The position numbers and the translations under genes are program-made. From an uncultured Clostridium sp. (lineage in GTDB: Bacteria > Bacillota > Clostridia > Lachnospirales > Lachnospiraceae), in assembly GCA_947644195.1 (NCBI GenBank), contig CANRZB010000032.1, forward strand, positions 1-44,672: a stretch of 44,672 bases of DNA. The letters run 5' to 3'. Shown piece by piece: positions 4,099-36,631 of this stretch. Below the pieces are notes generated by a model. The model had not been told where the DNA came from. It did no database searches and saw only the letters and a list, made by a program, of their open reading frames with translations. Position 1 is the first letter of the stretch, and each line of letters starts with the position of its first letter.

Positions 4099-6525
4099 TT
4101 ATTTCCCCCGCCTTAACCACAGCAGAAAGAGAACGGTCAATGCAACTCCCAACAAAGTCACACACAATCCCTCTGCCAGATACGGATATCTCATTGTGAT
4201 TATCGTATTCCCCCGGTCCACATAGGTCAATTGATTCTTATGCCTTACCTTCTGCCTGCTGTGAAAGATATCGTGATAGGCAAGAGAGGTATTGACATCC
4301 TCCTTTGGGGAGGAAATGGTCAACTGATTTCTCTCATAGGTAATCTCCAAAGGAACCAGGCGTCGGTCTGGCAGCTCCCGCAGAAAATCTCCCGTCATTC
4401 GGTGAATCAGCTCTCCCGCTTTTTCATCCTGCGTCAGAGCATAATGAAAGGTCAGGTTCAGCCCGATAAAACAGATATTCTCATTCTTTACCGTTCCAAG
4501 AAAATCAATTTTGCGGCCAGCATCATACAAATACCCCTCCGTGTTCTCCAGACCATTAAAATACACGCATTTCCAGTCAGAATACTCCTTATCAAACAGC
4601 CCGCAGTCTACCTCGCCATCTTCCGTATATAACACCGGATACCCATTCTCAAACAGGATATCATGACAGGTTACCCCCAGAAATTCCTGCGTTCTTGTGT
4701 TCTTATGATAGGGGAGGCCATCGCCAATAATCACAATGCGCACTCCCGCCTCACTGAGGCGGACAACCAAATCCTCCGCCTTCTTCTTGTCATCATACAC
4801 AAAACCAGCCAGAAAAACCACCTGATATTGGGAGAGTTCCTCATAAGAATACTGATTGAGATTGATCGAATCGCCTTTGACAATATCCGGGTCAGACAAT
4901 GACATCAGGGAAGCAGCAGTTCCAATCCCAATGCCGTTGTACTGGCATACTGTCCCAAAGCAGCCAGGGGCAGCATCCAAATGATACAGCAAAAAACTGT
5001 CATTGGAATCCACCAGCTCGTATCCCAGTTTCCTGGCACTCTCCGTCATCTGCGGGATATCTGCCTCCTGGTATTTCATTTGACTGATCTTAATCAAAAC
5101 GGTATCATTGCCAAGCTCCAGACAACGGTCAAACAGATATAAATAATGTCCCTGCTCTACCGCCTCATTGAGCAGGGCGGTATTCTCTGCCGTAGAGGCA
5201 GACTGCCATCCGGCACTAAAGGTGCTCGGTGTCTTTGTTCCATCATAATCCACCAGAAGGTATTGTGCCATTGCCCCTAATGTACCTCCGTCCAGAAGCG
5301 CGGCCCTCTGAATAGTAATATCCTGCACTCTCCTGATCAGGCTGTCCTGTGCTGTCTCTTCCATCCGCTGGCTGGCAGTCGTCTGGGAACGCCCAGAATA
5401 CACCAGAGACAGGGACGGTATCGTATCCAGTACCAACAACGCCATACACAATACCACAATCCATCTGCGCAGCGAATTCCAGAGAAGAAAACTATAGAGA
5501 ATCATACAAAGGGCAATGGATATACAACGCAGCATCCAGAGATACTCTCCACCTGGTAGTTTTTCGAACACGGAACACATCGTTGTAGTAGTACAGAGAA
5601 AGATCAGAAATGCCGATAAAAACCCAATCACTGATTTCTTCTTACTGCAGATTCCTCCAAACACTAGGAGGAGAAACGCCGCCAACCCGAAATAGAATTC
5701 CACATGGCCCACCATCAAACGCCGAAATGGATTCAGGGAGATCACTGCCTCCTGGAAATAATGATGCATAACCTGGGAACTTTCTGCCACAGCGCCCCCT
5801 CCCCTCAGGAAAGCAAACAGCCAGACACCGATCAGCAGAAATGGCAAAAGCAGACCAGCAATCACAAAGAGATAATTTCCCTTTTTACCAGAGACAAGTC
5901 GATAAACCAAAAGAAAAATCAGCATAGCCAGCAGAATCATTCCCGCATATCCCACATGGCACAGTGCAATCCCTGTAAACACAGCGATAATTTTTCCCAT
6001 CTCCTGCCATCTCTTTCCCTGTAAATACTCATAGACAAAATAGAAAAGAAGTGGCAGTAACACTACCGACAGGGAACGGGGAAGATCTCCCTCCACAAAA
6101 ATAGCGTACAGGTTGTTGGGCATAAAAAACCAGAGAATACCCAAAAAAGCTCCCAACCATGGGCGCTCTTTTCTGACCCCGATATATAACCAGACCACGG
6201 CACCGAAAATAAATACAAGCGCCACAAAAACCAGATAACCTGCGATTGCATTTCCCCCGGCAAGCATCTGGCATAAGGCCAAAATATATACCGGCAGGGG
6301 AGAGGCATAACGCAGCACCTGTACCCCATTATCCCAGAGACCATCATACAAAGGATACCAGTTCCCCTCCTGGATGCTGTGATACAACAAATTGCCCTGA
6401 TAGATATGACGCATGGTATCTGTTCCGGCAGGATATCTGCCTCCCATCTGAAGGATCCCTGCCATTCCGACTGCGATTGCCGCATATAGCAAAACCATAG
6501 CCAAAATCCAAAACTTCTTCTTCAC
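4099..6525 (-). CDS. large PTPS-related polytopic membrane protein of the exosortase-G locus
   Basis: This 808-residue protein has one N-terminal TM segment (WILAMVLLYAAIAVGMAGIL), then about ten hydrophobic segments up to residue about 400. A long soluble region follows (about 400-770), then a last TM helix and a basic tail (LFLLWLRRGK). The first extracellular loop (YPAGTDTMRHIYQGNLLYHSI) resembles lipid-linked-sugar glycosyltransferase-like membrane proteins. The call rests on resemblance to the '6-pyruvoyl-tetrahydropterin synthase related' membrane family, named for its neighbourhood, not for activity. The start is GTG with GGAGT upstream. It is the last gene of the operon, 17 nt after the PTPS-like gene. 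A role in building or transferring a glycan for the sorted surface protein is inference. Confidence 0.75.
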   Translation of the reverse strand: MKKKFWILAMVLLYAAIAVGMAGILQMGGRYPAGTDTMRHIYQGNLLYHSIQEGNWYPLYDGLWDNGVQVLRYASPLPVYILALCQMLAGGNAIAGYLVFVALVFIFGAVVWLYIGVRKERPWLGAFLGILWFFMPNNLYAIFVEGDLPRSLSVVLLPLLFYFVYEYLQGKRWQEMGKIIAVFTGIALCHVGYAGMILLAMLIFLLVYRLVSGKKGNYLFVIAGLLLPFLLIGVWLFAFLRGGGAVAESSQVMHHYFQEAVISLNPFRRLMVGHVEFYFGLAAFLLLVFGGICSKKKSVIGFLSAFLIFLCTTTTMCSVFEKLPGGEYLWMLRCISIALCMILYSFLLWNSLRRWIVVLCMALLVLDTIPSLSLVYSGRSQTTASQRMEETAQDSLIRRVQDITIQRAALLDGGTLGAMAQYLLVDYDGTKTPSTFSAGWQSASTAENTALLNEAVEQGHYLYLFDRCLELGNDTVLIKISQMKYQEADIPQMTESARKLGYELVDSNDSFLLYHLDAAPGCFGTVCQYNGIGIGTAASLMSLSDPDIVKGDSINLNQYSYEELSQYQVVFLAGFVYDDKKKAEDLVVRLSEAGVRIVIIGDGLPYHKNTRTQEFLGVTCHDILFENGYPVLYTEDGEVDCGLFDKEYSDWKCVYFNGLENTEGYLYDAGRKIDFLGTVKNENICFIGLNLTFHYALTQDEKAGELIHRMTGDFLRELPDRRLVPLEITYERNQLTISSPKEDVNTSLAYHDIFHSRQKVRHKNQLTYVDRGNTIITMRYPYLAEGLCVTLLGVALTVLFLLWLRRGK

Positions 6526-6542
6526 TGCTCCCTACTCCTATC

Positions 6543-7004
6543 CTAATTCAGAATATTGTCCAGCACAGAATCAATGATTCCATCCACTTTTTTCTCTGAA
6601 TTTTTTCGAACGCTCTCCAGAAAACCAATCTCTCTCTCAAAGCTGATCACATAACTTCTGGTGGGTGTCTCACTGCTCTCCATTTTAATCAGTTCTCCCC
6701 CAAGATTTTTTACAATGCCGCGCACATCACGAATAAAATAGTCCGACATATTTTCCAGCGTTGGGATCACATGGTCAAAAGGAGCAATCTCATTAATTAC
6801 TCTGTTCTGATATTTATTAAAATATTCATCAATCGCTTTCTCAAAGGCATCGAATTGGACAAACTCGTCATTGTCCATTAGGATATCTACCATAAACTCC
6901 CAGGTATGGGGATGGCGCTGCCCTTCCTTACCATCAATGATAATAAAATGATTCGCATTAAGATAAAATTTGAATTTATATTCCCGGTAAAGTGCATTAC
7001 TCAT
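6543..7004 (-). CDS. 6-pyruvoyl-tetrahydropterin synthase / QueD-like protein, exosortase-G associated
   Basis: This 153-residue protein has the T-fold layout of PTPS/QueD. Three zinc-ligand histidines are kept: His19 (NANHF) and His31, His33 (RHPHTW). The PTLEN motif matches the family PTxEN, FDHV matches the catalytic His segment, and SSETPTRSYVI matches the substrate-binding Glu strand. The nucleophilic Cys, normally a few residues before HGH, is missing; the protein contains no cysteine at all. It probably does not run the standard pterin reaction. It overlaps the upstream gene by 8 nt and has a strong GGGGAGGAAG site. Proteins of this type accompany XrtG in other Bacillota (remembered, not searched). 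Confidence 0.82.
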   Translation of the reverse strand: MSNALYREYKFKFYLNANHFIIIDGKEGQRHPHTWEFMVDILMDNDEFVQFDAFEKAIDEYFNKYQNRVINEIAPFDHVIPTLENMSDYFIRDVRGIVKNLGGELIKMESSETPTRSYVISFEREIGFLESVRKNSEKKVDGIIDSVLDNILN

Positions 7005-8106
7005 CGGTATCTTCCTCCCCTATCTTTTCTGCCAGTCCCGCACGCCGCAGAAAATCTTCATAACATTCCCTGAGAGACTGTTCCGGTCTCTCACAAGCCA
7101 CAGGCGAACCAACCACAGATTCTTCCATCTGCATCCGCTCCATGGCCTTTTGCACATCCTCTTCCCGATATTGCAGAAATACCAGGACGATATCATGCTT
7201 CTTTACAGAAAATCGGAGTACCTTTTCATCCAACAAAAGCTGGGCTTTTTCTAAAAATACATTTCTCTGCTCCCGGTCTCCAAAAGAAAGCTGTAAAAAT
7301 ACCACCGAATCCAGCTCTCTCTGGGACAGTTTTGTCACAAAAGCATCCATCAGGCTCCCATGAAACAGATTCCAGCGAGTGTGATAATCATCCATAGACT
7401 CTATCTTTTCCTCCATCTGCTCCACCTGACGGTTCAGCAGTTGTGTCTTCTCAGACAAAGCCTGGATTTTCCTGGTCTTTCTGTCCAGAAAACGATTGAG
7501 AATCAAGGTAACCAGCAAAAATCCCAGTAAAATCACCGCAATAAAAATATACAGGGCAATCTTGGAGGATAAAAATACATTTTGATCCAGAATAAAGGTT
7601 TCATTGGTCAAAAGGCAGATTTTATAATCCTCACCCCGGTAAGCAAAGATCACACCGGATATGACATACCGCTTGCCGTCAATCTCGATAATCTCATGAC
7701 GAACTCGGTTGACTTCCAGATTCTCCATAAACCTGGCAGCACTTTCCGACACATAATATGTGGCGTTGGTAAAACCTTTATATCGGTTTGTCTCCGTAAT
7801 ATCCTTCACAAAAAGAAGGGACTGATTTTTGGACAACGTCCAATATTTCCGATTGGACGTATCCAGAGAGCCCAGAATGTCCCTGATAATATCTTCATCG
7901 GTTCGGTCCGGTTGCAGATTAATCTGATCAAGCACCAACTGTACAAAGGCGTCCTGCTGATCCGCATAAATGGAAAGCACACTGCTCTCATAGGCTTCCA
8001 TTTGGCGATATCCCACAAAGGCCATCAAAAGAACCAGTGCCATGATCCCAATCGACCATACTTTATAATCAATTTTGTTTTTCAGTTTCTGCTTCATAGT
8101 TGACAT
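6997..8106 (-). CDS. two-TM sensor-like protein of the exosortase-G operon, function unknown
   Basis: This 369-residue protein has TM1 at about 16-34, an extracellular region of about 145 residues, TM2 at about 182-204, a coiled coil at about 210-240 (QALSEKTQLLNRQVEQMEEK) and a cytoplasmic domain at about 250-325. The layout is that of a membrane sensor with a signalling helix. The cytoplasmic part (ELDSVVFLQLSFGD...VKKHDIVLVFLQY) could be a degenerate GGDEF-like fold, but no GGDEF motif or other catalytic signature is present. ATG 8106 is preceded by AGAAGGTG; it overlaps the 3' end of the glycosyltransferase by 38 nt. A likely role is assembly or control of the glycosyltransferase complex; this is inference. 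Confidence 0.6.
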   Translation of the reverse strand: MSTMKQKLKNKIDYKVWSIGIMALVLLMAFVGYRQMEAYESSVLSIYADQQDAFVQLVLDQINLQPDRTDEDIIRDILGSLDTSNRKYWTLSKNQSLLFVKDITETNRYKGFTNATYYVSESAARFMENLEVNRVRHEIIEIDGKRYVISGVIFAYRGEDYKICLLTNETFILDQNVFLSSKIALYIFIAVILLGFLLVTLILNRFLDRKTRKIQALSEKTQLLNRQVEQMEEKIESMDDYHTRWNLFHGSLMDAFVTKLSQRELDSVVFLQLSFGDREQRNVFLEKAQLLLDEKVLRFSVKKHDIVLVFLQYREEDVQKAMERMQMEESVVGSPVACERPEQSLRECYEDFLRRAGLAEKIGEEDTDE

Positions 8107-9454
8107 ATCCTCTCACCTTCTGTATCACATGCAGAACTCGGGCAAAATCTTTTACTATCGTCTGTTTCACACTCCCAAATTCCTCCCCAAATCCTTTTGT
8201 CCTCCATGCGCTGTCCGTGTTGATACTGTTAATGACCCCTGCAAAGCGGATAAAAAACACAATCAAGTTAAACAGCGGCAAGAAAGGCACCATGTACCAC
8301 TGTCTGGCATAATACTTCCGAATCTCTGGAAATCCTCTCAGAAACCCTACCGTTGAAACATAATAAAAGAATCCCATCAAAATATATAAACCAAGTAACA
8401 ACAACGAAGAAAATGCAATCAATGCAAAGGAATAATGCATAAATAACAGGCAAAACAATGCCAGATACCAGATCATCCTTGGAAATGCAAAGGTATGGTC
8501 ATAGAGAAGAGTGCGGACGCCCACATTGGTAAACATATTCCTGGCCTTCATCTTATCTTGCAGAAACAGCTTAGATACCTCCAGGCTTCCCCTCTGCCAC
8601 CGCTGCCGCTGTGTGTATAATTTATTCATATTCTCAATCGGATCGACAAAGAAAATTGCATTTTCACAGATGGAAACCTTGGTATTCATGAGGTATTTCA
8701 TCTGAAAGGTAATCTGTGTATCCTCACAGATCGTATCTGTATTATAAAGCTGTGACTTTAATACTGCTGATTTCCGAAAAGCAGAAAACGCTCCCGATAA
8801 GGTATAGATGGCGTTAAGCTCCGAGGCATAGTTGCGCCCCGCCAGAAATGCCTGGGCATACTCCAGAAACTCCAATTTTCTGAGCATCCTTGGAAAGAAC
8901 AGGGGATACCCCTCCACCTGCTTCGGATCCGTCAGAATCACTCCCGTCATACATTCAATCGACTGGTCCTGTTCAAACTTATACACCATGTTTTTTAATG
9001 CAGACGGCTCCAGAAGGCCATCACTGTCAATATGGATAATATATTTTCCCTCACTGTTAAACAATGCCAGATTCAACGCTTTTGACTTTCCCTGTTTTGC
9101 ATTGAGCCACTGCATCCGCAACTGTGGATACTTGCGCTGACATTCACAAAACACCTGGAAACTGTCATCTTGCCCTTGGTTGTTTACCAGAAAAATTCGA
9201 ATCCTGGAATCCGGGTAGTCGCTTTCATCAATAGAGCGAAGACATTCCTCCAGCGTATTCATGGAATTATAGACGGGAATAATCAGAGAAATTTCCGGAT
9301 CAATGGCAGGCACCTCACATACTGTCGGGAAGAGCCTCTTTTTAATAAGTACAATGACACTGCCAATGGATGGCACAATTTCCATCACAAAAGGAATGAC
9401 AATCCACGCAGACCAGAATACAAATGAATTCAATAAATTATTGATCCATGCCAT
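8069..9454 (-). CDS. family 2 processive-type glycosyltransferase, exosortase-G associated
   Basis: This 461-residue membrane glycosyltransferase has an N-terminal TM anchor, then a GT-A domain starting ISLIIPVYNSMNTLEECLRSI. It shows the metal-binding DSDG, the acceptor-site CEDTQ and the QRQRW (QxxRW) motif of processive enzymes such as cellulose, hyaluronan and poly-GlcNAc synthases. Three or four TM helices follow (LFCLLFMHYSFALIAF onward). ATG 9454 with AGTAGGTGG 8 nt upstream is preferred over a GTG at 9466. It overlaps the exosortase 3' end by 17 nt. It matches the glycosyltransferase that travels with XrtG and probably makes a surface glycan; the sugar is unknown. Confidence 0.88.
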   Translation of the reverse strand: MAWINNLLNSFVFWSAWIVIPFVMEIVPSIGSVIVLIKKRLFPTVCEVPAIDPEISLIIPVYNSMNTLEECLRSIDESDYPDSRIRIFLVNNQGQDDSFQVFCECQRKYPQLRMQWLNAKQGKSKALNLALFNSEGKYIIHIDSDGLLEPSALKNMVYKFEQDQSIECMTGVILTDPKQVEGYPLFFPRMLRKLEFLEYAQAFLAGRNYASELNAIYTLSGAFSAFRKSAVLKSQLYNTDTICEDTQITFQMKYLMNTKVSICENAIFFVDPIENMNKLYTQRQRWQRGSLEVSKLFLQDKMKARNMFTNVGVRTLLYDHTFAFPRMIWYLALFCLLFMHYSFALIAFSSLLLLGLYILMGFFYYVSTVGFLRGFPEIRKYYARQWYMVPFLPLFNLIVFFIRFAGVINSINTDSAWRTKGFGEEFGSVKQTIVKDFARVLHVIQKVRGYVNYEAETEKQN

Positions 9455-10034
9455 AGGAAAAGCCACCTACTTTCTGACGAATAATCTGTGTCCTGGTAAA
9501 GACAAAAAAATACAGCAATACGGATAAACCATAAAATACAAGTCTTCCAATAAAAGTATGCGCTACTGCATAAGCCGGCATGCCCCATATATGAATGATA
9601 ACACAGATGACAATAATGCGGAGAGCATTGACCAGAATGATATAACAGGTTCCCAGCATGGCAAGGACCAAGCGCTCATAACGGGTATATGCCCGGAAAA
9701 ACAAAAGCAGTGAGATAAACGCCATAATCTCCAAAATCCCAGAACATTCAAAATCAATGAGGAGGGATATTGCACCAGCCTTGGAATCTATAAAAATTAC
9801 CCCATATTTAAAATATGCGGAAAACATTTCCGTCCATGTTCCAAATCCTCCAGCCAGAGCTGCTACCACCTGTGCCAAAGGCTGCGTCAGCACCGGCCGG
9901 ACATAGATCATCATCAACACAAATAAACCACAGCTTCCCCATAGAAACCGCCATGCCGGAAGCTCACTTTTTGTCAGAACCCTTAAGATATATAACCATA
10001 TCGCCAATAGGAGTATTCCTAAGATCAGATTCAT
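9438..10034 (-). CDS. xrtG: exosortase family protein, Gram-positive XrtG type
   Basis: This 198-residue polytopic protein has the exosortase catalytic triad layout in membrane-proximal loops: Cys97 in FECSGI, Arg139 in VNALRI and His159 in YAVAHTFIGRLVFY. Exosortases and archaeosortases are transpeptidase-like enzymes that cut C-terminal sorting tails at the membrane. The short length and Bacillota setting fit XrtG. Its ATG comes directly after the stop of the putative substrate gene (TAAATG), with GGTGG upstream. The adjacent substrate, glycosyltransferase and PTPS-like genes are the expected partners. The triad assignment is from family knowledge; XrtG biochemistry is barely described. Confidence 0.9.
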   Translation of the reverse strand: MNLILGILLLAIWLYILRVLTKSELPAWRFLWGSCGLFVLMMIYVRPVLTQPLAQVVAALAGGFGTWTEMFSAYFKYGVIFIDSKAGAISLLIDFECSGILEIMAFISLLLFFRAYTRYERLVLAMLGTCYIILVNALRIIVICVIIHIWGMPAYAVAHTFIGRLVFYGLSVLLYFFVFTRTQIIRQKVGGFSYGMDQ

Positions 10035-11672
10035 TTATGCCACCCTACATTTCCTTTTACGATACCATAATACGCCTAATACAGACAGACCACACAGAGA
10101 GATCCCCATGACCGCTCCTGTGGATGCTCCAGCGATAGATACCCACTCTGTACCGATATTGATATATTGTGCCTGAATCAGCTTCATGTCAGTCACATCC
10201 ATATCAAAATGCGCCGCTAATCTTTTCATATCCACCCGAAATTCCATTTCGTCAGACACAGGCACACCGTCTGCTGTCTTACGCACCGTCAGATACATGC
10301 TTCCGAACACAGGGGCATCGGCATCTTCCAGATTACCCGCTGTAGAACCAGAAGCCAGATCCCATAAATAATATTCATACGTACCCGCATCCAGACCTTC
10401 ATGCTTTGGATTCATATTTATATTGCCATCCTGGTCCGCTGTCACAAGACGGAAGGATACCGCCGTCTTGTCATTTTCATTAACACGGATGGTAAAAGGC
10501 AGAAATTCCTTTTCATCCCGATGGAGATTGGATAGCACATGGCCATACAGGACAGTTCCATCAATATACAGCGCCGCTTCCGCATCCCCGCCGACACCGC
10601 CAGGGGTAGAATACTGTATCAGATCATGTGGATAATAATCCCAATCACGATAGCTGCCATCATACACAATTCCATTAAAGTTCTTTTCCTCCTGAGAAGG
10701 ATGCAAATTAGCCACATCAGAAATCAGCATCTCCTGATTCATATAATACCCAAAAGAAACCGTTTCTTTATACTGTTTTATCGCATTGGCAGGAATCGAG
10801 ATCTCATACTGGCAATTGGAATGTTTCACCTTTGCGCCGTCAATTCCCTCCACAGAATCCTTATTCAGTTTGAACGTAGTATTCCTTCCGGTATCCGTAT
10901 AAATCGTAAATTTACCATTACTTTTCTCCCCCGACCAGGTAACAACCCCGTCAGAAGTCTCTTTCATATAGAGATACAAATAATCTCCGTCAAACACCAT
11001 CGCAGTCTCAATCAGAATACCATCGCCCACTGCCTTTTTCGCCACTGCATCCCAGTCGCCAAAGCTTCCGTCAACGGTAATGCCCTGATAAACTGCCTCT
11101 GTGGGCTGTGGTGTCTCTTCCAGTTTACTCACATCCAGAATATCCTTACTCTTCACAGAGGTACCACAATACGTAACGGTATAATCCCGCTCCACAAAAA
11201 AAGTCTCTGGCACAGCAAACTCAATTTCATATATCTCCGCCTCACTACTTGGCTGATATGCTGTTTTTACATCTGCAATATCCCCATACCAGGCATCTTT
11301 GAGCTGCTCCATCATACCCGCAAAACGAATCTGGCAGCTTTTATCTTCTCTTCCGCTGTCATAGTCGATTTCTACATGAGTTTCGGTAATCGGCAGACCA
11401 TATTGGTTTCCTCCGTTTTGTTGCACATAGAAGTAGACATATCTGTCATCCCTGGCAATGGCCCACTTCTCAACCCTGCGATCCTTTGAAGACTGCATTG
11501 TCACTTGGCCCCAATCAGACGGATTACCATCTACCTTAATACTTTGGGCCGCCTCTGCCGGACAACTCCACGCACCAGCACCCAAAACTGCCGCCATCCA
11601 TGCTGCCACGCATCCCCTTACTATTCTTCTTTTGTTTCCTCTCTGATTTCTTTTAATAATTCCTTTCCTCAT
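10035..11672 (-). CDS. secreted Firmicu-CTERM-type surface protein, probable exosortase-G substrate
   Basis: This 545-residue protein has a long basic Sec signal (cut near Ala42), three modules and a C-terminal sorting tail. The tail has a small-residue stretch, a TM helix (GISLCGLSVLGVLWY) and basic RKRKCR, as in proteins with the Firmicu-CTERM tail. Each module starts with a DGxxxDW motif: residues 48-54 (DGNPSDW), 201-207 (DGSFGDW) and 338-344 (DGSYRDW). This is reminiscent of CBM9/DOMON-like beta-sandwich domains, so carbohydrate binding is plausible but not shown. ATG 11672 (GGGAGG upstream) is chosen over GTG 11681, which is too close to that site. It is the first and likely most expressed gene of the operon. 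Confidence 0.82.
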   Translation of the reverse strand: MRKGIIKRNQRGNKRRIVRGCVAAWMAAVLGAGAWSCPAEAAQSIKVDGNPSDWGQVTMQSSKDRRVEKWAIARDDRYVYFYVQQNGGNQYGLPITETHVEIDYDSGREDKSCQIRFAGMMEQLKDAWYGDIADVKTAYQPSSEAEIYEIEFAVPETFFVERDYTVTYCGTSVKSKDILDVSKLEETPQPTEAVYQGITVDGSFGDWDAVAKKAVGDGILIETAMVFDGDYLYLYMKETSDGVVTWSGEKSNGKFTIYTDTGRNTTFKLNKDSVEGIDGAKVKHSNCQYEISIPANAIKQYKETVSFGYYMNQEMLISDVANLHPSQEEKNFNGIVYDGSYRDWDYYPHDLIQYSTPGGVGGDAEAALYIDGTVLYGHVLSNLHRDEKEFLPFTIRVNENDKTAVSFRLVTADQDGNINMNPKHEGLDAGTYEYYLWDLASGSTAGNLEDADAPVFGSMYLTVRKTADGVPVSDEMEFRVDMKRLAAHFDMDVTDMKLIQAQYINIGTEWVSIAGASTGAVMGISLCGLSVLGVLWYRKRKCRVA

Positions 11673-11797
11673 AGCAACCACAACCTCCCATTATTCCTAT
11701 CAAGCTGCCGCTATTTCTCTTGTTCAGTTTATTCTTTCGTTATCATAATATTCAATTGGATTTTCCATCGTTCCACACTTACAATCAATCTGATCCT

Positions 11798-11957: not shown

Positions 11958-11986
11958 TTGACAACCCCGCTCCCCCATGATAAAAT
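11958..11986 (+). promoter_or_regulatory. promoter of the cobalamin-riboswitch transcript
   Basis: TTGACA (11958-11963), a 17-nt spacer and TAAAAT (11981-11986). Transcription should start near 11993 and run through the riboswitch into the secreted protein gene. The stretch 11826-11957 between the two divergent promoters is AT-rich and holds no gene that I can support. Confidence 0.75.
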
Positions 11987-12079
11987 AGCAACGCTGTCAG
12001 TGAACTGCCGGCCTGCTTCCGTCGCAGTGGAGCAAAAACAGGATTCATGACTCATGTCCTCCGCTCTCATAGATCCAGG

Positions 12080-12402
12080 AAGCACCGTCAGGCAGACTGA
12101 AAAGGGAATGTAGTGAAAAGCTACAGCAGCCCCCGCTACTGTAAGAATGATGTGTTTTTTATAGCAGAACATCTATCCCGATCCGAGTTTCGACGTACCT
12201 GTGATATGCTGTCACAATCTCAGCGAAACCGAAGCCGCCTCTGGAAAGATTTTTTGCCGAAGCACCACTGTAGGATATTCTACAATTGTAGTTTGGCGAT
12301 TTGGACTAATCGCTCTTTGATTCGATTGACCATGTAGGAATTCTATGGGAAGGGAAAAACACAGTTTGAGTTCTAGCCAGGAGACCTGCTGACACGCCTT
12401 GC
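12080..12402 (+). promoter_or_regulatory. cobalamin (B12) riboswitch
   Basis: Conserved blocks of the cobalamin element occur in order: GAAAAGGGAA (12099-12108), AGCCCCCGCTACTGTA (12127-12142), CACCACTG (12263-12270), ATGGGAAGGG (12346-12355) and the B12 box AGCCAGGAGACCTGC (12375-12389). The spacing between the second and last blocks is long, so one or more peripheral arms are enlarged (about 12145-12340). There is no obvious T-run terminator before the gene. The 60 nt from the B12 box to the AGAGAGGAAAG site may act by hiding the ribosome binding site. By analogy with known elements, B12 should repress the downstream gene. Confidence 0.93.
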
Positions 12403-12460
12403 GAAACAGATTCCGGGGATGGGATCACACGCAAAATAAAGATCTAAGAGAGGAAAGAAA

Positions 12461-14596
12461 ATGAAGACAAGAAAACAAAAGATGCTAAGTCTACTGTTGT
12501 CTCTGGCACTGGTCCTCGGTTCCGTTACAGGAATCCCGTACCACACTGACGCAGCAACGGAGACAGCAAAAAAGATCATTGTGTATGTGGCAGCAGAGGG
12601 AACAAATGCATCCGGTGCATCTGTGACCATCGACAAGACACCCGTATTATTAAGCACCGGAAGTACGGCAAAAGAAGCCATCAAAACCGTACTGGACCAG
12701 AATTATCCAGATCATTATGTCATTTCTTCCAATGCGTGGGGCGACAGTCTGGACGCCATCGGCGACCTGGCGCAGACAGCAGATTATTCCGCATACTGGA
12801 ACTTCTGTGTCAATGGAGAGATGGCGCAGACCGGCATAGGCTCTTACGAACCGAAAGACCAGGATCAGATCAGTCTGCTCTATGGAGGATGGCCTCTAGA
12901 ATCCCTGGAATGTTCCAGCTATCAGAATGACACTTCCCTGGAGCCGGATGCCGAACGACGGGACGCTTTATTAAACAATGCAAAAGCACAGCAGTCGTTA
13001 TTAGCCGAAAAGATCTATGAAACTAATCTGGCAGGCGGCGCCTATGTTCCCGGAATCGAAGACACAAACGGCCTGTATGTGGTATTCTTCCTGGCACAAT
13101 CCGGTTTCTCTGCCGAGGAATACTATACTGCCGTCGTCAATAAAATTCTGGCACAATATACGGCAATCCGTACAAACGGTTCTACCTATGGCGCCGTATA
13201 CGATGCCGACATCACATACGATTATCTGGATACCAATCCCTATGCAATCAGCAATTACTGTAAAACCGCCCTGTGTCTAGCTGCTTTAGGGCAGGATATT
13301 ACCAATGTCGCAGGGATTAATCTGGTTGAGAAAATTACCAGCCAGAAAGTATATTCCGCAGCTACAAGCGATAACACCCTGTCCCGTGAATCTCTGATTC
13401 TGCTTACCATGGATGGGACAAACGCCAGTTGGCCGAAAACCCCGGACACAATTACCCGGGCAGAGCTGGTAAACACTCTGGCAAAAGATGTGGAGGACAA
13501 AATAACATCCTGTATCGCCTGGAACTCCTATGACTATGCCGCCATGGTCATTCAGGCACTTGCCTCCTCTCTGGAAACAGATGATTCTTCCATAGATACG
13601 GCGGCATTAGAACGAACCTGCCAACAAGTCATGGGACTGCTATCCAACGTTCAGCAAAAGGACGGCACCTATCTTTCCTATGGCACAAGCAGCCCTTGGA
13701 CACTGGCACAGGTAATGACTACCCTTGGATTATTTGGAATCAATCCATTAAAAGACAGCCGCTTTATCAAAAATGGCCAAACCGTCTTTGATATCTCCGC
13801 AACTTTTATTGACACAGAAAAACAATGGATTGATCCACAGCTCATCGGCGGAGAGTATGCGTTCCAGCCGGAACAGCTTTTAGAGGGACTGACTTCCTGC
13901 ATCCGCTCCCTAGAGCAAGCGCCAACGCTATTCGACCTGTCAGAACCAGCCTGCACAGTCACTCCTAAGAACCCGGATGCCATGCAGATCTTACAGTCCA
14001 GTATGGTTGCACCTATTCCGAACCAAACCGCAACGGGCAAGCCGGTCATGCCAAAACTCACGATAACGGCAAATCAGACTACACTAGTAGAAGGCATTGA
14101 CTTTACCGTAACATATCGAAACAACGCAGAACCAGGAACCGCCTACGCCATCGTTACGGGTATTGGAAATTGGATGAGCACGTCCCTCAAAATCCCATTC
14201 CAGATTGTCGCTGCCCAGAAACCGGGAACTCCGGGAAACCAGGCACCAACAACCGGAACTCCGGGTGGAAACCTACCGCCAAACAATCAAACGGCACAAA
14301 ACAGTAACAGAAAAGCGTCCATACCTGCCATACCAAAGATCCGTAAACTGGCTTCCCAAAAGAAAAAGACACTGACTGTTACCTTCTCCAAAGGGAAACA
14401 TGCAAAAAAATACAAAATCCAGATTGCCACAAACAAGAAGTTTCGGAAAAACGTGAAAACAAAAACGGTATCCTCCGTCAAAAAAGTAACGTTCCGAAAA
14501 TTACAATCTGGCAAGAAATACTATGTGCGCATCTGCGCCCTGAACGGAAAAAAACAGAGTACGTGGAGTAAGATAAAAAGTAAAAAAGTGAAATAA
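12461..14596 (+). CDS. secreted transcobalamin/intrinsic-factor-like protein (DUF4430 plus helical barrel), riboswitch-controlled
   Basis: This 711-residue exported protein has a signal peptide at about 1-32 and a DUF4430 domain at about 55-145. The segment YWNFCVNGEMAQTGIGSYEP followed by DQISLLYG resembles the cobalamin-binding beta domain of intrinsic factor and transcobalamin. A helical repeat region (about 160-490), with DYAAMVIQAL and QKDGTYLSYGTSSPWTLAQVM, is like the alpha6/alpha6 barrel of the same proteins and terpene cyclases. An Ig-like repeat (about 505-585), a Pro/Gly/Thr/Asn linker and a Lys-rich FN3-like domain (about 622-711) follow. There is no LPXTG or TM anchor, so attachment may be through the basic C-terminus. 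With the riboswitch just upstream, capture of B12 or other corrinoids outside the cell is the best inference. Confidence 0.8.
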   Translation: MKTRKQKMLSLLLSLALVLGSVTGIPYHTDAATETAKKIIVYVAAEGTNASGASVTIDKTPVLLSTGSTAKEAIKTVLDQNYPDHYVISSNAWGDSLDAIGDLAQTADYSAYWNFCVNGEMAQTGIGSYEPKDQDQISLLYGGWPLESLECSSYQNDTSLEPDAERRDALLNNAKAQQSLLAEKIYETNLAGGAYVPGIEDTNGLYVVFFLAQSGFSAEEYYTAVVNKILAQYTAIRTNGSTYGAVYDADITYDYLDTNPYAISNYCKTALCLAALGQDITNVAGINLVEKITSQKVYSAATSDNTLSRESLILLTMDGTNASWPKTPDTITRAELVNTLAKDVEDKITSCIAWNSYDYAAMVIQALASSLETDDSSIDTAALERTCQQVMGLLSNVQQKDGTYLSYGTSSPWTLAQVMTTLGLFGINPLKDSRFIKNGQTVFDISATFIDTEKQWIDPQLIGGEYAFQPEQLLEGLTSCIRSLEQAPTLFDLSEPACTVTPKNPDAMQILQSSMVAPIPNQTATGKPVMPKLTITANQTTLVEGIDFTVTYRNNAEPGTAYAIVTGIGNWMSTSLKIPFQIVAAQKPGTPGNQAPTTGTPGGNLPPNNQTAQNSNRKASIPAIPKIRKLASQKKKTLTVTFSKGKHAKKYKIQIATNKKFRKNVKTKTVSSVKKVTFRKLQSGKKYYVRICALNGKKQSTWSKIKSKKVK

Positions 14597-35055: not shown

Positions 35056-35062
35056 ACACGTA

Positions 35063-35331
35063 CAAATGCGAAGAAGAGAAGAAGTAATAACAGCAGAAAC
35101 CTACAGAAAGCCGCCGGTTGATGAGAGGCGCAGGAATACCCTGTTATGAATACATCTCCGAGCAGCAGACTGAAGGGCAGACTGCCTGGTAGGTCCCGCC
35201 GGTAGTGCACCCGTTAGCATGCAGGGATATCACAAGGTATCCTGCCGAGGCAGTATATGTGAGTATACTGTGAAAAAAGGTGGTAACACGATCATTCGTC
35301 CTTTTGTCCTATGACAAAAGGACTTATTTAT
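35063..35331 (+). promoter_or_regulatory. tyrosine T-box leader with terminator
   Basis: Leader RNA that senses uncharged tRNA-Tyr. The T-box sequence AAGGTGGTAACACG is at 35277-35290. The probable specifier is the Tyr codon TAC at 35152-35154 in ATGAATACATCTCCGAG, the usual specifier-loop context; another TAC lies at 35138-35140. The terminator is GTCCTTTTGTC (35298-35308) with GACAAAAGGAC (35313-35323), then TTATTTATTTT. Uncharged tRNA should favour the antiterminator and expression of tyrS. Confidence 0.93.
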
Positions 35332-35407
35332 TTTAAAGATTAGGGAATCAAACGGCCAAAACACCCTTTGATTTTTCCAGTCTTTAAAGGAAAACAGGAG
35401 GAAGATT

Positions 35408-36631
35408 ATGACAGTTTACGACGAATTAGTTGCCAGAGGCCTGATTGCCCAGGTAACCGATGAAGCAGAAATCAAAGAATTGATCAACACGGGAAAAGCC
35501 ACGTTCTATATTGGTTTTGACCCTACAGCAGACAGCCTGCATGTTGGCCATTTTATGGCATTATGTCTGATGAAACGGCTGCAGATGGCAGGAAATAAGC
35601 CAATCGCGCTGCTCGGCGGCGGCACAGCCATGATCGGCGATCCCAGCGGACGCACCGACATGCGCCAGATGATGACGAAGGAAACGATTGCCCATAATAT
35701 TGATTGCTTTCAAAAACAAATCAGCAGATTTATCGACTTCTCCGATGGAAAAGCACTGTTAGTCAACAATGCCGACTGGCTTTTAAATCTTAACTATGTC
35801 GATCTGCTCCGTGAGGTGGGTGCAAACTTCTCTGTCAACCGGATGCTGACGGCAGAATGTTATAAACAGCGCATGGAACGAGGATTAAGTTTTCTGGAAT
35901 TTAACTACATGATTATGCAGAGCTATGATTTTTACGCATTATACCAGAATTATGGCTGTAACATGCAGTTTGGTGGGGATGACCAGTGGAGCAACATGCT
36001 GGGCGGTACGGAACTGATCCGCCGCAAATTAGGCAAAGATGCCTATGCAATGACCATCAATCTGCTGTTAAATTCTGAAGGCAAAAAGATGGGAAAAACG
36101 CAGTCCGGCGCTGTCTGGCTGGATCCAAATAAAACCAGTCCATTTGACTTCTACCAATACTGGCGTAATGTCAGCGACGATGACGTACTAAAATGCCTGC
36201 GGATGCTGACGTTCCTGCCATTGGAACAGATTGATGAAATGGACCGCTGGGAGGGCAGCCAGCTAAACCAGGCAAAAGAGATTCTCGCCTTTGAGTTGAC
36301 CAAGATGGTACATGGCGACGAGGAAGCTGCCAAGGCACAGGAAGGAGCCCGGGCATTATTCTCCAGCGGCAATGCTGCCGATATGCCGGAAACCATACTG
36401 ACTGATTCTGATTTTGAAGAAAACGGAATCGGCATCCTGAATCTCATGGTAAAAGCAGGACTGGCGCCTTCCAATGGCGAAGCCCGCAGAAATATCCAAC
36501 AGGGTGGTGTCGCAATCGACGGCGACAAAGTAACCGACGTCAAGACCGTAATTACCAGAGACCAGATTGGTCCGGATGGTATCGTCTTAAAGCGAGGAAA
36601 AAAGAAGTTCGTTAAGATTCTGGTGCAGTAA
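35408..36631 (+). CDS. tyrS: tyrosyl-tRNA synthetase
   Basis: This class I synthetase charges tRNA-Tyr. The 407-residue protein has the HIGH-type motif PTADSLHVGHF, tyrosine-site segments (NYMIMQSYDFYALYQNYG; MQFGGDDQWSNMLGG), the KMSKS-type KMGKTQSG and a C-terminal S4 RNA-binding domain (NGEARRNIQQGGVAIDGDKV). It is full length for the bacterial TyrS type. CAGGAGGAAG lies before the ATG. It is controlled by the Tyr T-box just upstream. Its 3' end overlaps the convergent DUF4364 gene by 20 nt. Confidence 0.97.
   Translation: MTVYDELVARGLIAQVTDEAEIKELINTGKATFYIGFDPTADSLHVGHFMALCLMKRLQMAGNKPIALLGGGTAMIGDPSGRTDMRQMMTKETIAHNIDCFQKQISRFIDFSDGKALLVNNADWLLNLNYVDLLREVGANFSVNRMLTAECYKQRMERGLSFLEFNYMIMQSYDFYALYQNYGCNMQFGGDDQWSNMLGGTELIRRKLGKDAYAMTINLLLNSEGKKMGKTQSGAVWLDPNKTSPFDFYQYWRNVSDDDVLKCLRMLTFLPLEQIDEMDRWEGSQLNQAKEILAFELTKMVHGDEEAAKAQEGARALFSSGNAADMPETILTDSDFEENGIGILNLMVKAGLAPSNGEARRNIQQGGVAIDGDKVTDVKTVITRDQIGPDGIVLKRGKKKFVKILVQ

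Follow-up and report, generated by a model that had tools for sequence, protein, structure and literature searches.

What is the function of a secreted-type bacterial protein that is encoded directly behind a cobalamin riboswitch and is predicted to combine both folds of the animal vitamin B12 carriers? We addressed this question for a 44,672-nucleotide contig of an uncultured Clostridium sp. of the family Lachnospiraceae (CANRZB010000032.1, assembly GCA_947644195.1; the entire contig is referred to below as the window), in which a gene at positions 12461–14596 of the plus strand encodes a 711-amino-acid protein with a DUF4430 domain followed by a predicted alpha/alpha barrel. The evidence makes it very probable that this gene encodes the extracellular corrinoid-capture component of a B12 importer of the energy-coupling factor (ECF) type, made when B12 is scarce.

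The initial annotation had placed a cobalamin riboswitch directly ahead of this gene, and a covariance-model scan of the window bears this out: an RF00174 aptamer occupies positions 12072–12407 of the plus strand (58.7 bits against a gathering threshold of 31.5, E = 3.8e-12), and spans the full model (1–189), its variable region being enlarged by an insert of 174 nt. The element had been thought to start at 11958, which is 114 nt too early, and the open reading frame (ORF) itself stands as annotated. This is the sole RF00174 match in the genome assembly (3.44 Mb, 82 contigs, 97.5% complete). The ORF starts 53 nt past the aptamer end, behind a ribosome-binding-site-like GAGGAAAG read by eye from the sequence (12450–12457, plus strand), and the predicted fold of 12072–12480 contains a hairpin between aptamer and start codon (12399–12434, plus strand), which is a candidate expression platform. 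No T-run follows this hairpin, so that it is probably not an intrinsic terminator, and, given that the whole leader (12072–12480) folds no better than its shuffled versions (z = −0.33), it is weak evidence for an expression platform; the possibility that the leader as a whole is unusually stable is likewise not supported by this comparison.

The protein is built of several parts, all coordinates of which refer to the plus strand. Residues 1–33 (12461–12559) look like a Sec signal peptide; the N-terminus is typical, as judged by eye, and the protein is therefore putatively secreted, with neither a membrane nor an LPXTG anchor recognizable by eye. A DUF4430 domain, i.e., an SLBB domain resembling the transcobalamin beta domain, had been proposed at residues 55–145, and three approaches locate it in this part of the protein: PF14478 matches residues 96–141 (E = 3.1e-8, past the curated cut-off), an iterated hidden Markov model (HMM), with the window protein among its seeds, widens the match to about residues 49–141, and in the predicted structure the strands and helix of this half extend over residues 38–142 (12572–12886). 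The best Foldseek matches of the modeled domain are 5no0 and 5np4, both transcobalamin beta domains (for 5no0, E = 8.5e-5, probability 1.00, target TM 0.68). The third match, amid transcobalamin beta domains, is the solved structure of Ruminococcus gnavus RUMGNA_00854 (3u7z), a chain of 96–97 residues without a barrel; its title, ‘putative metal binding protein’, may merit re-examination in relation to B12. The predicted alpha/alpha barrel follows at about residues 164–500 (12950–13960), with helices of at least 4 residues between residues 157 and 484, in close agreement with the 160–490 of the initial annotation. The barrel model fits the alpha domains of intrinsic factor, haptocorrin and transcobalamin, with about 12–14% identity in these alignments, although the list of its structural matches is headed by squalene cyclases. 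Thus, the proposal that both halves of the animal carriers are present in one bacterial protein held up in the fold searches. The region past residue 500, on which the annotation was silent, consists of a variable linker at residues 501–625 (13961–14335), Ig-like by eye only, and a fibronectin type III domain at residues 635–704 (14363–14572; PF00041, E = 1.8e-6, above the Pfam cut-off) with a Lys-rich tail.

The link to intrinsic factor does not emerge from sequence comparison alone, and such a link, although sought with both profiles and phmmer, had to be dropped. The middle of the protein has no Pfam match above cut-off, an NCBIfam scan yields none at E up to 0.01, and PF01122, which we take to be the animal intrinsic factor/haptocorrin/transcobalamin family, does not match at E up to 1. 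Likewise, phmmer with the whole protein yields no match of any kind below E = 0.5, and the best E of the DUF4430 profile, 0.32, is not convincing. Among PDB sequences, the barrel profiles A6 and A7 match squalene-hopene cyclases best (E about 1e-12), and intrinsic factor is not among the matches. The modeling relied on alignment A6, with fused rows; alignment A5 was discarded because it misaligned DUF4430 fragments onto the barrel. It is the predicted fold, the Pfam DUF4430 match and the genomic context that suggest the kinship with intrinsic factor.

The window gene stands alone, with no ECF genes beside it, and the ECF cluster of the same genome lies on another contig (C33), where genes for a DUF4430 protein with a putative transmembrane segment, EcfT, a double ATPase (EcfAA) and an S component are arrayed together (L004:5132–9050, minus strand). 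A scan of 16 kb around this cluster detected no riboswitch at gathering level. The S component (PF12822) and the ATPase (ABC_tran) exceed their Pfam cut-offs, and EcfT is known only through a CbiQ match below cut-off (17 versus 25 bits). The best PDB sequence match of the S component is 6fnp (E = 6e-6), the deposition for the vitamin B12 transporter ECF-CbrT (PMC5997447), so that this protein is predicted to be a CbrT-like B12 transporter subunit, and the DUF4430 protein encoded next to it appears, by eye, to be membrane-anchored. A profile with L084, in which barrel and DUF4430 are naturally fused, as its lead sequence matches just two loci in the genome: the window protein is detected by the barrel part of the profile (E = 7e-33 and 3e-5), and the protein on C33 by the DUF4430 part (E = 1.3e-16). 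CobS (PF02654), the only biosynthesis gene searched for, has no match in the genome, and there are three matches to B12-binding domains, as expected for a B12 user that imports corrinoids.

The connection between the two loci becomes apparent in relatives. Among 295 genomes searched, 9 of the 27 other genomes of the genus encode relatives at 42–68% identity, 7 of which cover nearly the entire query, with the N-terminal part missing in the other two (G218 and G214); an earlier search of 200 genomes of the family, as well as a pattern search of viral contigs, brought up no close relative. A riboswitch lies directly upstream of the orthologue in 4 of the 9 loci scanned (L118, L120, L121 and L122), and in two further genomes, G212 (L127) and G211 (L128), a single riboswitch heads a same-strand cluster of genes for the transmembrane DUF4430 protein, EcfT, EcfAA, the S component and, as the last gene, the barrel orthologue (42% identity to the window protein overall, 35–52% by domain). 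The stretches scanned at the remaining 3 loci contain no riboswitch. Moreover, the DUF4430 protein of the ECF-linked type, assigned by hit coverage and frame length, occurs in 13 of the 28 genomes of the genus, namely, in all 10 that encode the barrel protein versus 3 of the 18 that do not (Fisher p = 2.2e-5, uncorrected for kinship and incomplete assemblies); its ECF neighbors were checked in five genomes (the window's own, G204, G208, G211 and G212). Two of the three exceptions, G209 (L129) and G201 (L130), in which no barrel orthologue was found, contain an additional frame of 443–453 amino acids that matches DUF4430 weakly and that, in G209, is located close to ECF genes and a cobalamin riboswitch; these frames are possible replacements of the barrel protein.

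The same association extends far beyond the genus. A search of GTDB species genomes from the barrel sequence (A3) yielded 441 pattern-matching stretches, 300 of which encode a relative, and the counts that follow rest on the best 80 of these 300 (L035–L114), all from Bacillota by title, with the single exception of Eggerthellaceae L102; the loci are partly redundant rather than independent, as the near-identity of L067 and L069 shows. Riboswitches were identified with Rfam models after a hand-made regular expression had been abandoned (its strict form matched 1 of the 80 loci and none of the shuffled sequences, its relaxed form gave 17 matches versus 6 in shuffles). Cobalamin-clan riboswitches are present in 42 of the 80 loci, 46 of the 47 elements being on the strand of the barrel gene. 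Specifically, 77 loci contain 45 elements in 40 loci, and the last three contain 2 elements in 2 loci (L113 and L114, with none in L112). In 38 of the 40 riboswitch loci of the 77-locus scan, a same-strand element lies upstream of the barrel ORF, and in 24 of the 40 it is within 700 nt of this ORF; in L073, the riboswitch overlaps the called start of the ORF. As an internal control, the same scan found besides only 1 T-box, 1 TPP and 1 ZMP-ZTP riboswitch and 4 tRNAs, and, at an assumed density of 0.33–2 riboswitches per Mb, 0.25–1.5 would be expected in the 752,724 bases.

The gene content of these loci points in the same direction. DUF4430 is encoded in 77 of the 80 (iterated HMM, E < 1e-3), in a separate ORF in 68 and in the barrel ORF itself in 28. 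Of the window genome's own ECF proteins, EcfT has relatives in 61 loci, the S component in 43 and EcfA in 55, the last count being the least specific because the ATPase is a common fold; EcfT and EcfA are found together in 54. A common gene order is barrel, DUF4430, EcfT, and three loci (L084, L089 and L096) encode a single fused barrel–DUF4430 protein in the order of intrinsic factor, with EcfT directly following the fusion gene in L084 and L089. A Pfam scan of 40 barrel proteins matched SQHop_cyclase_C in 28, Prenyltrans in 18 and DUF4430 in 14. Several variants on the architecture were observed. Of the 40 proteins scanned (alignment A4), 13 have a dockerin match, and the Ruminococcus bromii protein of L073, with the riboswitch at its start and ECF genes after it, has a dockerin-like end by eye; such domains suggest that B12-capture proteins may sit on cellulosome-like scaffolds. 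Paenibacillus loci L045, L066, L085 and L091 encode giant proteins of about 1470–1730 amino acids that include both DUF4430 and a barrel and are preceded by cobalamin riboswitches. Other Lachnospiraceae genera encode small DUF4430 proteins (frames of 135–207 amino acids) a few hundred bases past cobalamin riboswitches (G125:C30, G031:C24, G157:C61, G024:C43, G165:C7 and G045:C26), which may form a further B12-regulated DUF4430 class that lacks the barrel.

Based on these observations, the following mechanism can be envisaged. At low B12, the riboswitch would permit expression of the window gene, a direction of regulation suggested by the usual behavior of the RF00174 class. The protein would be exported, and its barrel and DUF4430 domain, as counterparts of the two halves of intrinsic factor (alpha and beta, respectively), would keep a corrinoid bound at the surface of the cell. 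The ligand would then be handed over to the putatively membrane-anchored DUF4430 protein encoded on C33 and imported by the CbrT-like S component together with EcfT and the double ATPase; the first and last of these steps are proposed on the strength of the known behavior of the respective classes. Corrinoid binding by the window protein and the hand-over itself are what we infer from this arrangement.

The barrel of the window protein is strongly diverged, which raises the question of what it binds. In the phylogeny, the proteins of the genus group into a single, fully supported clade (100/100) with a long stem. The other 52 rows of A6 have 64 barrel positions conserved to at least 85%, of which the window protein matches 33 and the next lowest row 50; this consensus excludes the window protein and thus somewhat favors the other rows. 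Among the 10 genus proteins, invariant positions number 17 in DUF4430, 56 in the barrel and 16 in residues 626–711, with none counted in residues 501–625, a pattern from which we conclude that both domains are maintained in the genus, with the barrel altered. With about half of the family-conserved positions changed, the preferred corrinoid may differ. One alternative, accordingly, keeps the role in uptake but changes the ligand, the genus barrel taking another cobamide, cobinamide or a B12-related compound. Besides the divergence, this alternative can draw on the caution voiced by a reviewer of PMC1796856 that the clade may bind other ligands and on the fact that CbrT also accepts cobinamide (PMC5997447). 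However, both the riboswitch and the resemblance of the S component to CbrT tie the protein to corrinoids, so that a non-corrinoid ligand is unlikely, and we regard a change of ligand on the whole as unlikely too, albeit deserving of real weight.

The other alternatives depart further from uptake by the cell's own importer, and the comparative data bear on each. Without an anchor recognizable by eye and with its gene apart from the ECF locus, the window protein could be conceived of as sequestering corrinoids from competitors, or as storing them outside the cell, rather than feeding the importer; yet, the orthologue resides within the importer cluster in G211 and G212, and in the genus the barrel is found only where the ECF-type DUF4430 protein is also encoded, which renders this scenario improbable. 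Least credible of all is that the barrel is an enzyme-like alpha/alpha toroid, related to cyclases or sugar epimerases, that merely belongs to the B12 regulon and binds no corrinoid. The prominence of squalene-hopene cyclases among both sequence and structural matches, and the frequency of SQHop_cyclase_C and Prenyltrans in the family, are compatible with this possibility, but DUF4430 is near or fused to the barrel in nearly all loci, three natural fusions reproduce the order of intrinsic factor, and the model fits the alpha domains of all three animal carriers. Squalene cyclases are not known to carry such a partner. Capture of corrinoids for the ECF importer hence remains the preferred interpretation.

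A broader scenario can be put forward only tentatively, and as a whole it is somewhat doubtful. Under this scenario, a ‘split intrinsic factor’, in which the barrel half is soluble and the beta half is tethered to the membrane, would exist across the Bacillota, and the two halves would close on the corrinoid at the cell surface beside the ECF pump. The animal B12 carriers would have arisen from this bacterial split system by fusion, as seen in L084, L089 and L096, and, in the genus of the window, the barrel, whose protein has an N-terminal beta domain of its own, would have been re-tuned to another corrinoid. Finally, several species would keep the B12 riboswitch only in front of the barrel gene, such that capture, not pumping, is under B12 control.

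The window protein is a member of a kind that was predicted in 2007. Burroughs et al. (PMC1796856) described secreted bacterial proteins in which an SLBB domain is fused to an alpha/alpha toroid, with either of the two first, encoded in operons with CbiO/CbiQ-like genes and often a second SLBB gene, in hosts without key B12 biosynthesis enzymes; they predicted these proteins to be B12 scavengers of low-GC Gram-positive bacteria and proposed their transfer to animals. We take the SLBB domain of that work to be the later DUF4430. The word riboswitch is absent from the main text of the paper. The window protein shares with those proteins the predicted fusion of a transcobalamin-type SLBB domain with an alpha/alpha toroid, but differs in the strong divergence of its barrel, in its solitary gene with a riboswitch ahead of it, and in having the ECF genes on another contig; the operon type of 2007 is present for the G211 and G212 orthologues, and the window's genome has such a cluster on C33. 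Beyond that prediction, the present analysis contributes the large-scale riboswitch linkage, the split-gene arrangement, a structural match for each half and the recognition of the diverged clade.

Comparison with characterized B12-binding systems places the protein further. Intrinsic factor, haptocorrin and transcobalamin share both predicted folds with it; however, in the animal carriers the barrel comes first and the beta domain last, whereas in the window protein this order is reversed, and the latter additionally differs in its fibronectin type III tail, bacterial origin and lack of a PF01122 match. The C33 S component is related to that of ECF-CbrT, but its gene is part of a dedicated cluster that also encodes a DUF4430 protein and that, in relatives, includes the barrel gene as well, whereas the account of CbrT in PMC5997447 names no extracellular binder. 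In Bacteroides, surface B12 capture for import is likewise encoded in riboswitch-controlled loci by BtuG, BtuH and BtuJ, but these proteins have other folds, including the beta-propeller of BtuG and the DUF4465 beta-jelly roll of BtuJ1, and act with a TonB/outer-membrane system (PMC6977713, PMC13398666).

Two further features of the window were noted. A known Gram-positive exosortase system adjoins the gene on the minus strand (4099–11681), comprising a 6-pyruvoyl-tetrahydropterin-synthase-related protein (6543–7004), an XrtG-associated glycosyltransferase (8069–9466), XrtG (9438–10034) and a Firmicu-CTERM sorting-domain protein (10035–11681); no B12 link was seen, and we rejected these genes as part of the B12 locus. 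On the plus strand, a T-box leader (99.9 bits) directly precedes the tyrosyl-tRNA synthetase gene, an ordinary arrangement (35062–36631 for the two together).

According to PMC6593275, the B12 uptake transporters known from gut genomes are BtuFCD(B) and CbrT, and the finding of further B12 uptake systems is an open problem. The word transcobalamin is absent from the riboswitch regulon survey PMC3766115, and, in the open-access literature (subscription papers and preprints aside), we found neither an experiment that tests a bacterial DUF4430/toroid protein nor a report of its riboswitch. The results presented here provide a concrete system to test, with regulatory, operon and structural evidence. 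If our interpretation is correct, this gap would be filled in part by a capture protein that resembles intrinsic factor, is widespread and linked to riboswitches, and is coupled to an ECF pump. Such a protein would also bear on the origin of the animal B12 carriers, and single proteins could then be used to test how host and microbes compete for B12.

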